A DNA stretch of 38,382 nucleotides from Verrucomicrobiales bacterium (GTDB lineage: Bacteria; Verrucomicrobiota; Verrucomicrobiia; Limisphaerales; UBA9464): positions 1 through 38,382 of the forward strand of contig JAIXXC010000210.1 of assembly GCA_027490985.1 (NCBI GenBank), read 5' to 3'. How positions within the stretch are numbered: the stretch's first letter is position 1; each line of letters starts with the position of its first letter. Under the pieces are notes generated by a model that was given only the letters and a program-made list of their open reading frames with translations, did no database searches and was not told the origin of the DNA. This document shows, piece after piece, positions 30,478 through 34,914 of the stretch. A program made the position numbers and the translations under genes.

Positions 30478-31350
30478 TCAAAGCGTCAACCGCTCTCCGG
30501 CGCGAAGTCGGTGATAGGGTTGTTCGAGAGCCTGGCATTGCGCCTCGAATGCCGCGGGCGAGGCCGTGTTGAACTCGAACAACTCGTAGTGGCACGGAAT
30601 GACCCTCCGGAGGCCCGCCCGCCGAGCCAGACCCGCGGCCTCGGGACCCCAGAGGTTTCCGGCCACACGGCGCTCCGCGGACCGACCATTGATAGGCAGG
30701 AACGCCAGATCGACCCGGGCCTCGAGCAACCGCTCTTCCATTCCCGGAAACAGGACGGTGTCGCCCGAATGGTAGAGGGTCCAGGGCCCCACCCGGATGA
30801 GAAATCCCAGGCAGGACAGGCGGCCCAGCGGATCACAGTCCAATCGTTCATGGGCCGCCGGCACGGCTTCGAACTCGAAGGCCCCCAGGGTCACCGAGGT
30901 CAAGGCGCCGGGGCCCGCCGGTCGATCGACCGACGGAGCGTCGAGGCCGGACAACGCTTCTTCGGGCAGGCCCGACCGCGCCGCGACCAGACTCCGGATC
31001 GCCTCGGGGAACACCATCCGGAGGCCGGGATTGGCCCGCACCAGGGGCACCAGGGTCTCGGGATCGAGGTGATCGGTATGGGCATGACTGGCGGTCACCG
31101 CCGCGATGCCCGTCAAACGCCCGGGCTCGATCACCCGCTCGGTCATGCGCACATGCGGTTTGTCGGTGCCGGCATACTTGTGCGTGAGGGAGTCGGAGAG
31201 GTACGGATCGAGCAGCAGACGGTGTCCCTGCCACTGGACCAGAAAGCCGCTCTGCCCCAACCACCAGACATGCAGCGATCCGGGCGCCGAGTCCCCCGCC
31301 CTGTCGAGGTCGGCCAGAAAGGCGTCATCCTGTTGGAACGGGCGGATCAT
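30478..31350 (-). CDS. MBL-fold metallo-hydrolase
   Basis: A 290-residue protein of the metallo-beta-lactamase fold, in the UlaG-like group. The metal site motif is SHAHTDHLD (H89, H91, D93, H94). Further conserved parts are VWWLGQSGFLVQWQGHRLLL near the N-terminus and YHSGDTVLFPGM. Relatives cleave lactones, phosphodiesters or phosphonates, and the substrate is not clear. GAGG lies seven bases before the ATG, one of the few Shine-Dalgarno sites in the window. It starts nine bases after the MetE-like gene, so the two are probably co-translated. Confidence 0.88.
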   Translation of the reverse strand: MIRPFQQDDAFLADLDRAGDSAPGSLHVWWLGQSGFLVQWQGHRLLLDPYLSDSLTHKYAGTDKPHVRMTERVIEPGRLTGIAAVTASHAHTDHLDPETLVPLVRANPGLRMVFPEAIRSLVAARSGLPEEALSGLDAPSVDRPAGPGALTSVTLGAFEFEAVPAAHERLDCDPLGRLSCLGFLIRVGPWTLYHSGDTVLFPGMEERLLEARVDLAFLPINGRSAERRVAGNLWGPEAAGLARRAGLRRVIPCHYELFEFNTASPAAFEAQCQALEQPYHRLRAGERLTL

Positions 31351-31359
31351 CCGGAGCCC

Positions 31360-32409
31360 TCAAAGAGTGCGGCGAACCTCGGCCACGCCGGCGCACAACG
31401 CCTGGAGCTTGCGCCGGGCGGCCCATCGGGCGGTCTGGCTGAGCCCACAATCCGGGGCCAGAACCAGCCGATCGGCCGGTACCTGCTCGAGGCATCGACG
31501 AACCCGTGCAGCGATGTCTGCCGGTGTCTCGATGTAGTAGCTTTTGACGTCCACGATCCCCACGGCCACGTCGCGCCGCCGGGCGATCTGGGCGATCAAT
31601 TCCAGCTCCGAGAACTCCCGACTGGCCATCTCCACATGCATCTCATCGCACTGCATGTCGAGGAAGGCCGGAAAGAGGGGGGCGATTTGCCGGGGACCGA
31701 TCGCCCTGGCCTTGTAGTTGCCGAAGCACAGGTGCATGCAGACCCGGGTCTTGCCGGTGATCGTCTCCACCGTGCGGTTGAAGAGATCCACGAATCGACG
31801 GACATCCTCGCGGTGGCCATAGCAGCTCATCGAGGGCTCATCGACACTGATCTCACGGCACCCGGCGGCCACCAGGGATTCCAACTCCTGGCGTACCATC
31901 GGCAGCAGAGCCTCGGCGAGCGCCCAGCGGTCGGGATACCCGAGATCGGCATTGGGCAGGAGCCGCCCCGACAAGGTGTAAGGTCCGGGGATCGAGGCCT
32001 TCAAGGTCACCCGCCCCGAGGCGCCCAGGTCGCGCGCGACGCCCTCCAGCCGGCGGTATTCTTCGACGGCTCCGAGGCCGCGGGGCGCCTGCAAGGGGGC
32101 CACCACCGCGTGACGCCCCCGTTGATCATGGGCGGGCGGGCCCCAACGACGGGGCGATTCCGACTCGAGCGCAATGCCCTGCAGGTAGCCGTAGAAGCTC
32201 AGATTGAAGTCGAGGCGGGTCTGCTCGCCATCGGTGATCACATCCAATCCCGCGGCCAATTGATCCTTCACCGCACAGGTGACCGCATCGGATTGCAGCT
32301 CGGCCCGGTCATCGGAACCGAATCGGTCGAGATGCACTGAGGCGTGTTCCAACCACGCCGGAAAGGGATAACTGCCGATCACCGAGGTTCGCAGGGGGCA
32401 CTGGGTCAT
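31360..32409 (-). CDS. MetE C-terminal-like methyltransferase (short form)
   Basis: A 349-residue protein that matches only the catalytic C-terminal half of cobalamin-independent methionine synthase. It begins LRTSVIGSYPFPAWLEHA as in the C-terminal barrel. The zinc ligands are present: H226 and C228 (MHLC), E260 (HVEMA) and C321 (LAPDCGLSQ). The family transfers a methyl group to a thiol. Full MetE (about 750 residues) uses folate to make methionine; short forms often use another methyl donor. The N-terminal half is missing by family type, not by truncation here, because the start is clean. Its neighbours are purU (49 bp upstream) and the MBL-fold gene. Confidence 0.85.
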   Translation of the reverse strand: MTQCPLRTSVIGSYPFPAWLEHASVHLDRFGSDDRAELQSDAVTCAVKDQLAAGLDVITDGEQTRLDFNLSFYGYLQGIALESESPRRWGPPAHDQRGRHAVVAPLQAPRGLGAVEEYRRLEGVARDLGASGRVTLKASIPGPYTLSGRLLPNADLGYPDRWALAEALLPMVRQELESLVAAGCREISVDEPSMSCYGHREDVRRFVDLFNRTVETITGKTRVCMHLCFGNYKARAIGPRQIAPLFPAFLDMQCDEMHVEMASREFSELELIAQIARRRDVAVGIVDVKSYYIETPADIAARVRRCLEQVPADRLVLAPDCGLSQTARWAARRKLQALCAGVAEVRRTL

Positions 32410-32458
32410 GGGGACTGGGTGTTGGAAAGTCGCGGACGGCCCGGGCGGGAGCGGGGTC

Positions 32459-33298
32459 TCAATCGAAAATGATGGTCCGGTTGCCCGCCAGGAACACACG
32501 GTCTTCGAAAACCAACCGCAGAGCCTGGGCCAGGGCGAATTGCTCCACGTCGCGACCGGCCCGAACGAGGTCTTCGGCGGCATGCGTGTGGTCCACGGGG
32601 ATCACGTGCTGGACGAGGATGGGCCCCGCGTCGAGGTCATCGGTCACCAGATGGGCCGTGGCCCCGATGACCTTCACCCCTCGCTGGAAAGCCTGATGAT
32701 AGGGCTTGGCCCCGATGAAGGCCGGCAGGAAGGAATGGTGGATGTTGATGATCCTCGATGGGTAACGACTCACGAATCCGGGCGACAAGACCCGCATGTA
32801 TTTGGCCAACACGAGATACTCGGGTCGGATCCGGTCGAGGATCTCGGCCACCGCCGCCTCGTGCGCGGCCCGATCGAGCCCGTCGGCGGGAACACAGTGG
32901 AACGGCACCTCGAACTTGCCGACCAACTCGCCCAGCACCGCATGGTTGCTGATCACCGCCTCGATCCGGGCGTTGATGCCCCCGAATTGGTGGCGGATGA
33001 GCAGGTCGCCCAGGCAGTGATGTTCGCGCGAGGCGAGCACCACGATCCGCTTCGGGCCCGGCTGGGCCAGCCGGACTTGCGCCCCCGCCGGCAAGGCGGT
33101 GCGGGTCTCCGACACGAGCTGCTGGCCCGCGCCGGAGTCTCCCAACCCATCGAACTCGGTGCGCATGAAGAAGCGCCCCGACGCGGCATCCACGAATTCC
33201 TGATTGCCGACGACATTGCAGCCATGACGGAGCAGCACACCGGAGATGGCATGCACCAACCCCCGTTGGTCCGGGCACTCGACCAGAAGGACCGCCAT
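32459..33298 (-). CDS. purU: Formyltetrahydrofolate deformylase
   Basis: A 279-residue protein. Residues 1-85 form an ACT domain (LLVECPDQRGLVHAISGVLL) and 85-279 a formyltransferase-like domain. The catalytic residues are seen as N185 and H187 in INIHHSFLPAF and D223 in DDLDAGPI. PurU hydrolyses 10-formyl-THF to formate and THF, balancing the one-carbon pool and feeding formate to PurT. In E. coli the ACT domain senses methionine and glycine. Methionine control would suit the MetE-like gene downstream. It begins 11 bp after the SIS gene. Confidence 0.94.
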   Translation of the reverse strand: MAVLLVECPDQRGLVHAISGVLLRHGCNVVGNQEFVDAASGRFFMRTEFDGLGDSGAGQQLVSETRTALPAGAQVRLAQPGPKRIVVLASREHHCLGDLLIRHQFGGINARIEAVISNHAVLGELVGKFEVPFHCVPADGLDRAAHEAAVAEILDRIRPEYLVLAKYMRVLSPGFVSRYPSRIINIHHSFLPAFIGAKPYHQAFQRGVKVIGATAHLVTDDLDAGPILVQHVIPVDHTHAAEDLVRAGRDVEQFALAQALRLVFEDRVFLAGNRTIIFD

Positions 33299-33309: not shown

Positions 33310-34791
33310 TCAGTGGCGACGTCCGCGGCCACCGCGACGGTGGCCCTGATCACGACCCCGGTCATCACGACCCCGGTCGTCCCGTCCGCGATCGTCACGA
33401 CCCCGATCCTCACGGCCGCGGCGTTCGCCGCTGTCGGAACGAGGGGCCGGAGCCGGAGCCTGGCCGTTCTCACGTAGCCAGAGGCGACGCTCGATGTCGT
33501 CCATCCGATCCCAGTTGGCGGGCTTGGGCACCTCGACCGGAGCCACCTCGGCGGTGGATTCCGGGGCCGAAGGGGCCATGCTCTCGGGCTGCGGGGCCCG
33601 TTGCTGACGCGGCTCGGCAGGCTCCTCGAGCCGGCGCGGCGGACGGCCGCTTCCCTCGCTGCGCTCACTCCCGCGGTCGGTGCGCTCGCCCCGCTCTGCG
33701 GAGCGCCCCCGGAATTCATCCCGAGGATCGCGCTCGGCGCGTTCAACGCGTTCAACACGTTCGGCCCGCTCCGGACGCTCGGCCCTGGCTTCGCGCGGTT
33801 CGCGGGATTCTCCGCTCTCACGGGCGCCCCGAGGCTCACGCTCACTTCCACGGCCCCGTCCGCCATCGCGACCGGATTCACGGCCCGACTCACGGCCTCC
33901 GGATCGTTCGCCGCGGTCATCGCGGCCGCGTTCCTGACCCCGCTCTTCACGGGGACGGTCTTCGGACCGCTCGGGGCGGCCCTCGCGGCGCGACCTCGGG
34001 GCCGGTGCTTCCGACGGAGCCTCACCGATATGGGCGTAGAGCTTGGCCAGGCGGCGGGCGTGCTCATCGTAAGCCGACTCGAACAACTGCGAGGCCTTCT
34101 CATTGCCCACCAGGGCCGGCGCGGTGAGCACCGTGGGCGGTTTGCCCGCCTCGGTGAGCAGCGCGGCGACCTCGACCTTGATGGCGTTGATGAGCATGCA
34201 TCCGCCGATGGTGGAACCGGGCCCCACCGGGGTCTCCAATCCGGGCACCTCGATCATCGCGTCGCCCACGGGGGCACCGGTGTCGAGCACGATGTCGGCG
34301 AAGTCCTGCAGCTTGCGGCCATCGCGGCGCTGGCTGCGGCTGGCCTCGCTGTGGGCTTTCGAGATGATGGCCACGACCTTCACCCCGCGACGCTTGAACT
34401 CCTCGGCCATTTCGATGGGCACGAGGTTGCAGCCCGACGACGAGGCCACCAACGCGGTGTCCTTGGGCGACAGGTCGTAGTTGCGCAGGATGCGGGCGGC
34501 CAAGCCGTGGACATTTTCGAGGAACATCGCCTGGCGCTGGCCGTTGGCCCCCACCACGAGATTATGGAAGCTCAGGGAGAGTTCGACGATGGGGTTGAAC
34601 CCGGGAAAGGAACCGTAACGGGGCCACATTTCCTCGACGAGGATGCGGCTGTGGCCCGAGCCAAAACAATGCACCATGCGGCCGGCCAGGATGGTCTCGG
34701 CAAAGAGGTTCGCGGCCTCTGCGATGGTCTCCTCCTGGGCGACAGCCGAGTCCAGAAGACTGCGGCACTGGTCAAGATAGTCAGCAATCAC
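33310..34791 (-). CDS. SIS-domain protein with long disordered Arg-rich tail
   Basis: A 493-residue protein. Residues 1-245 are a SIS (sugar isomerase) domain of the SIS_2 type (HCFGSGHSRILVEEMWPRYG, LVASSSGCNLVPIEMAEEFK, IISKAHSEASRS). Such domains bind phosphosugars, as isomerases or regulators. The remaining 245 residues are predicted disordered, rich in Arg, Glu, Gly, Asp and Pro, with RERPE/ERVERVE segments and a final RGRDDRGRDDRG repeat. A short ordered island, NWDRMDDIERRLWLRENGQ, lies near residue 450. The GTG at 34791 is chosen because family homology begins there (MIADYLDQC). In-frame ATGs up to 34881 precede it, but that stretch lacks the strong third-position GC bias of the gene. 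The tail resembles RNA- or polyanion-binding regions. Confidence 0.85.
   Translation of the reverse strand: MIADYLDQCRSLLDSAVAQEETIAEAANLFAETILAGRMVHCFGSGHSRILVEEMWPRYGSFPGFNPIVELSLSFHNLVVGANGQRQAMFLENVHGLAARILRNYDLSPKDTALVASSSGCNLVPIEMAEEFKRRGVKVVAIISKAHSEASRSQRRDGRKLQDFADIVLDTGAPVGDAMIEVPGLETPVGPGSTIGGCMLINAIKVEVAALLTEAGKPPTVLTAPALVGNEKASQLFESAYDEHARRLAKLYAHIGEAPSEAPAPRSRREGRPERSEDRPREERGQERGRDDRGERSGGRESGRESGRDGGRGRGSEREPRGARESGESREPREARAERPERAERVERVERAERDPRDEFRGRSAERGERTDRGSERSEGSGRPPRRLEEPAEPRQQRAPQPESMAPSAPESTAEVAPVEVPKPANWDRMDDIERRLWLRENGQAPAPAPRSDSGERRGREDRGRDDRGRDDRGRDDRGRDQGHRRGGRGRRH
33335..33414 (-). repeat. Tandem repeat encoding RGRDD units
   Basis: A degenerate 15-bp unit is repeated about four times near the 3' end of the SIS gene and encodes RGRDD. 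The run ends in an RRGGRGRR segment. The reading frame is kept across all units. Copy number is likely to vary between strains. Confidence 0.7.
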
Positions 34792-34914
34792 GGAACAAAG
34801 GTTATCAGGAACCCCCGGTGGAAGTGGATGCCAAAGATTGACCATCGCTTTGACCATCGCCGGGGTTGCATCCGAAGCCACCCGGAACCCAAAGTGGGTG
34901 CATCACCCGATCCC

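Follow-up and report, generated by a model that had tools for sequence, protein, structure and literature searches.

The window, by which we mean the whole analyzed stretch of 38,382 nucleotides, carries on its minus strand a gene of 493 codons with a GTG start (33310–34791) that encodes a SIS enzyme followed by a disordered tail. The initial annotation had described this fusion without naming a strand, and our analysis confirms that the gene is real. An alternative in-frame start at 34881, upstream of the GTG, would give a protein of 523 amino acids; relatives made up of the bare enzyme start close to the GTG residue of the window protein. The plus strand is likewise open across much of the gene region. 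Upstream of the GTG, at about 34794–34860 on the minus strand, lies a short block of DNA (AATCTTTGG...) that is unusually conserved, third positions included; an 18-nt form of it is common to 11 of the 17 orthologs and the string AATCTTT is found in all 17. Judged by its conservation and position, this block could be a promoter element near the start codon. The same genome encodes a paralog, a second SIS_2 protein (G000 contig C65, L001) with ~33% identity to the window protein over the core.

The enzyme core occupies residues 1–256 (34024–34791, minus strand). As the initial annotation proposed, half of the protein is a SIS_2 domain (Pfam, residues 4–144, E 3.5e-34), and residues 2–248 match the NCBIfam family NF002805/PRK02947 (UPF0309) with an E value of 1.2e-79 and 267 bits against a curated cut-off of 135, which places the protein in that family. 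The core is mostly well predicted by AlphaFold2 (34 sequences); the rows of the structure alignment are the window protein and 33 of 80 named genome loci, which come mostly from Verrucomicrobiota MAGs, many of them from lakes or ponds by their isolate names, with some Bacteroidota and Armatimonadota. By sequence as well as by fold, the solved structures closest to the core are BH3325 of Bacillus halodurans (PDB 3cvj) and NagS (PDB 9eol). BH3325, the best match, aligns with residues 11–227 of the window protein (E 3.9e-36; 34% identity in Foldseek); it has 243 residues and no tail, and its name on record, putative phosphoheptose isomerase, is putative only.

The comparison with NagS is more informative about activity. 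NagS (SCO4393, UPF0309; PDB 9eol, 9f7o, 9f7v) is the GlcNAc-6P dehydratase of Streptomyces, and the accessible part of the report on it describes nine mutated residues (H53, S54, R64, S91, E94, S119, S121, D179 and N228), among which H53, R64, E94 and D179 are essential, S54, S119 and S121 are phosphate-binding serines and S91 is important or catalytic; the same part states that the activity is confined to Streptomycetaceae and that distant homologs at about 30% identity lack it (PMC12680351). The window protein has the SIS subfamily fold in common with NagS (phmmer E 2e-24; Foldseek rank 3) and keeps seven of the nine residues: H53, S54, R64, E94, S119, S121 and D179. The four essential residues correspond to its H47, R58, E92 and D177, which are invariant across the 34 aligned relatives, as are the equivalents of the three phosphate-binding serines. 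It differs from NagS in that S91 is replaced by Met89, itself invariant in the 34 relatives, and N228 by Ala226; overall identity is ~28%, and NagS is a 251-residue chain without a tail. Because two catalytic residues differ, NagS function was not assigned by homology. The essential residues are retained, S91 and N228 are changed and distant homologs lack NagS activity; taken together, this makes it probable that the window protein is an active SIS enzyme whose substrate or reaction is not that of NagS.

Downstream on the same strand, after an 11-base gap, comes PurU (formyltetrahydrofolate deformylase; 32459–33298), followed by two members of a conserved cassette: a Meth_synt_2 (core-MetE-like) enzyme (31360–32526, its start not fixed since the reading frame is open to 32583) and an MBL-fold metal-dependent hydrolase weakly similar to UlaG lactonase (30478–31350). 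The order SIS, (PurU), Meth_synt_2, MBL (30478–33298 in the window; loci L035–L114) was also seen in Verrucomicrobiota, Bacteroidota and Armatimonadota. Of the 64 named loci in which 3.5 kb or more of sequence follows the SIS gene, 52 have Meth_synt_2 downstream in the same orientation (10 of 10 in the genus and 42 of the 54 others). In Bacteroidota, the SIS gene of each of the three loci inspected (L094, L095 and L109) is preceded by genes for an SDR dehydrogenase and a ROK sugar kinase. To judge from this gene context and from the NagS residues that it keeps and changes, the SIS enzyme is metabolic, and the cassette looks like a catabolic one with the SIS gene at its head. Judged by titles or the opening lines of abstracts, no paper from literature searches on the UPF0309/sugar isomerase domain family, on the cassette and on core-MetE assigns a reaction to the subfamily or to the SIS/Meth_synt_2/MBL cassette. 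Relatives without a tail keep the cassette, so the chemistry does not depend on a tail.

The tail itself spans residues 259–493 (33313–34017, minus strand) and bears out the description of this half as disordered and arginine-rich: AlphaFold2 gives pLDDT values below 50 across nearly all of residues 263–416 and 450–493, and the 235 amino acids include 62 R, 38 E, 30 G, 23 P, 19 D and a single K. The fraction of charged residues (FCR) is 0.51 and the net charge per residue +0.03. In a genus sample of 19 genomes, 17 have complete orthologs (in G012 the gene is cut at a contig end and G014 is without a close ortholog), and all 17 have the tail with its reading frame kept. The composition is equally constant: arginine makes up 0.24–0.26 and D+E 0.20–0.25 of all 17 tails, each has one lysine and net charge runs from -0.01 to +0.05, so that the genus as a whole has the composition of an Arg/acidic mixed-charge region. 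This composition is unchanged in L019 and L020, where GC3 of the core is just 0.55–0.59, and the preference for arginine over lysine is thus not merely GC-driven. In all 17 tails the charges are also better mixed than in shuffled sequences (kappa z -1.2 to -3.3). In one subclade (L016, L017 and L018) the tails carry a further acidic motif with Trp, DWDSEET, before the island described below.

What changes is the sequence itself. In a codon alignment of the window gene, as reference, with 16 orthologs, dN against the window gene is 0.007–0.13 in the core and 0.16–0.74, at high dS, in the linker, which also turns over through many in-frame indels; linker dN/dS is 0.08–0.47 where computable. Within this linker lies the one ordered island that the initial annotation had picked out, KPANWDRMDDIERRLWLRENG (residues 423–443; 33463–33525, minus strand), with the core motif NW..MDDIERR. 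It is present in all 17 complete orthologs. Its dN is 0 in 11 of 11 subclade-1 comparisons with the window gene, at pS of 0.46–0.95, and 0.07–0.18 in five comparisons with two other subclades. The island (dN 0–0.18) is therefore conserved far above its disordered flanks (0.16–0.74), as a short linear motif is. It is also ordered by prediction, since pLDDT is ~90 over residues 421–440, with a helix at 432–441, in a surrounding tail that is mostly below 50. On this codon-level evidence the tail is under selection within the genus, with purifying selection on both its reading frame and the island. A tail kept under selection with one short motif almost unchanged probably serves a function, for instance in docking or clustering of the enzyme.

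The island gives few further clues to a partner. It has no match below E 0.01 in the 31 other-genus genomes of the family; a single one of 387 phylum genomes matches, namely its own, and queries of that genome with the tail alone and with the island find just this gene at E values up to 10, the island once. No shared docking code is therefore visible. Weak matches outside the orthologs, in six places with E 0.018–0.06, were set aside as about the number expected by chance for 50 genomes. The hydrophobic moment of the island is no larger than that of shuffled versions, 57% and 37% of which reach it at the two window lengths used, which gives no support to an amphipathic docking face, and we discarded the reading of the island as an amphipathic helix.

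Two further features lie toward the C terminus. The RGRDD repeats reported by the initial annotation exist, as a tandem repeat of a 15-bp unit in 4.4 copies (33349–33414, minus strand), but they are the least conserved part of the tail: an array of several copies occurs in the window alone, as an expansion in its lineage, the orthologs having one or two units. The last 20 residues (33313–33372, minus strand) form a cationic Arg/Gly tip with a net charge of +5. This tip is conserved: every one of the 17 genus tails has an Arg/Gly-rich end whose last 20 residues carry a net charge of +4 to +8. An RGG/RG RNA-binding region would be expected to have repeated RGG/RG and a net positive charge; in this tail only the ~20 C-terminal residues are cationic and RG-rich, and the bulk is neutral.

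Because the initial annotation took the absence of a tail from close relatives as an argument against its reading, the distribution of the tail matters. Within the genus every complete ortholog is tailed; outside the clade most relatives are not. Among the 80 named loci, 15 are of the window type with the island and the other 65 lack it, two of these being long-tailed (L050 and L066, re-read as L164 and L171) and belonging to a second genus of the same family (g23). Twenty-four genomes of the family beyond the window's own genus matched, and 22 C-termini could be read cleanly (the G041 reading lost its frame, and a contig end truncates G060). In g23, seven of eight matching genomes are readable to the end and have Arg-rich tails of 34–191 amino acids; these tails (L146, L164, L168, L171, L174, L175 and L176) have exactly one Trp each, in a W-x-P motif in 7 of 7 and as WSPG in four, and their tips carry a net charge of +2 to +8 in six and +1 in one. 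A third genus (g5) has 32-residue basic tips in 3 of 3 genomes, and the remaining family members read have no tail or at most 22 residues. No long tail was found among 91 matching genomes of the order outside the family, for which 17 of 18 fetched sequences were read cleanly (G223 is out of frame) and 73 were judged by the length of the open frame, at most 307 amino acids (a few of these were also read; G086 stops at the end of its contig). The sister genus has an Arg-rich tail of its own; the island is confined to the window's genus.

In a tree of the core (45 rows, including 13 of the 17 genus orthologs) the two tailed genera cluster with moderate support (85/76), and their tails therefore likely have one origin followed by divergence. 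By this distribution the long tail is a lineage-restricted addition in one clade of freshwater, lake-dwelling Verrucomicrobiota. It was also considered as a module common to other proteins of the genome, and this was rejected on the grounds that tail and island queries match this gene alone. When 133 non-overlapping ORFs in 185,728 bases (the window included) were scanned with loose criteria, 13 had a 60-residue segment rich in R and D/E, and none of these is similar to the low-complexity tail on inspection; in this set a longer plus-strand ORF displaces the SIS gene itself.

We favor, with about half of our confidence, the reading that the protein is a SIS phosphosugar enzyme of a sugar-catabolic cassette whose tail is a docking and assembly region. 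One freshwater Verrucomicrobiota clade would have added an Arg-rich mixed-charge intrinsically disordered region (IDR) to a SIS enzyme; the island would fold as a short helix onto a partner, either another protein or the SIS dimer itself (the AlphaFold2 prediction is of a monomer), and the charge-balanced linker and cationic RG tip would make weak multivalent contacts that cluster or localize the enzyme. By analogy with the Rho IDR discussed below, the island may either dock a partner or fold back on the tail, and weak cohesion may come from the linker. A charged linker of conserved composition, one conserved motif and a cationic tip together have the make-up of an IDR for assembly or docking, and it is from this make-up that we infer docking, clustering and any regulation by the tail. 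A more elaborate version, in which an Arg-rich scaffold condenses or docks the PurU, Meth_synt_2 and MBL enzymes in a phosphosugar-responsive assembly and the helical island is an autoinhibitory or docking switch, strikes us as improbable; it would make the tail a condensate-type module added to sugar metabolism in a single bacterial clade.

A rival reading, which takes up one suggestion of the initial annotation, has the RG-rich tip bind RNA, DNA or a different polyanion, so that the enzyme or a phosphosugar signal is tethered to nucleic acid. We consider this unlikely, even though the Arg/Gly-rich tip is cationic throughout the genus and in six of the seven sister-genus tails, lysine is nearly excluded by arginine, and the fold matches include DiaA (4u6n/2yva) and MurR (7en7), SIS proteins with nucleic-acid roles. 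Against it, most of the tail is well mixed with a net charge near zero, Pfam and NCBIfam profile searches find no RNA-binding domain in the protein and the neighboring genes encode metabolic enzymes; what survives of the suggestion is that nucleic-acid binding limited to the cationic tip is plausible. The further proposal of a link to a cell-envelope polymer found no support. The low charge segregation that weakens a polyanion-binding role would suit an entropic bristle or solubility tag, which just keeps the enzyme soluble or spaced while selection sees composition. Composition and mixing are indeed conserved as sequence and length drift, and the accessible part of a study of artificial Arg-rich mixed-charge (R-MCD) peptides describes zwitterionic patterns as being well hydrated and interacting poorly (PMC9324279). 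A bristle leaves the near-invariant island, the W-x-P motif of the sister genus and the conserved cationic tip unexplained, and we regard it as quite unlikely. The same part of that study reports that blocky R-MCD peptides phase separate and have affinity for RNA, whereas alternating R/D peptides self-neutralize, lose affinity for neighboring molecules and do not phase separate (PMC9324279); by analogy, the well-mixed charges of the tail count against strong nucleic-acid binding by the tail as a whole and also against the docking and assembly reading.

It is very improbable that the tail is a neutral low-complexity expansion or an annotation artifact, produced by slippage in a GC-rich gene end, a frameshift or an antisense gene. 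Such an origin could draw on the window-specific RGRDD array, the open plus strand and the absence of a tail from related genera. The frame kept in 17 of 17 orthologs, the codon-level constraint on linker and island and a composition that stays constant despite near-saturated synonymous divergence all speak against it, and on frame conservation and codon-level constraint we rejected a frameshift, an antisense gene or a neutral repeat; a frameshift artifact and a non-conserved low-complexity expansion are among the outcomes that the initial annotation had named as fatal to its view.

Among known systems, eukaryotic Arg/acidic mixed-charge domains resemble the tail in combining arginine with acidic residues at near-neutral net charge. 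The window tail differs from them in having more Glu than Asp and in being rich in G and P. A bacterial parallel is the condensate-forming IDR of Rho from Bacteroides thetaiotaomicron: according to the accessible part of the report, it too is an IDR on a folded enzyme, with conserved composition, unconserved length and sequence and one conserved segment of ~30 amino acids, deletion of which alters condensation (PMC13269538). The Rho region differs in being KE-rich and prion-like, in sitting on an RNA helicase and in having its condensation shown by experiment; the likeness to the window tail is one of architecture, and we claim no sequence relation. Rho of the window's own genome (L137) has no RE-rich insert, and a Rho-type IDR there was rejected on this ground. 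Our literature search found no report joining a SIS domain with a disordered arginine-rich region, or with intrinsically disordered RNA binding in bacteria. In bacteria, IDRs with conserved islands are known from work on RNA enzymes, Rho among them, and, to our knowledge, are less often described on small-molecule enzymes. By the comparisons made here, the window protein is a metabolic enzyme with a lineage-specific, selected IDR. Since related genera have members of one enzyme family without a tail, with a short basic tip and with a long tail, these natural orthologs allow a direct comparison of what the gain of an IDR does to an ordinary enzyme.
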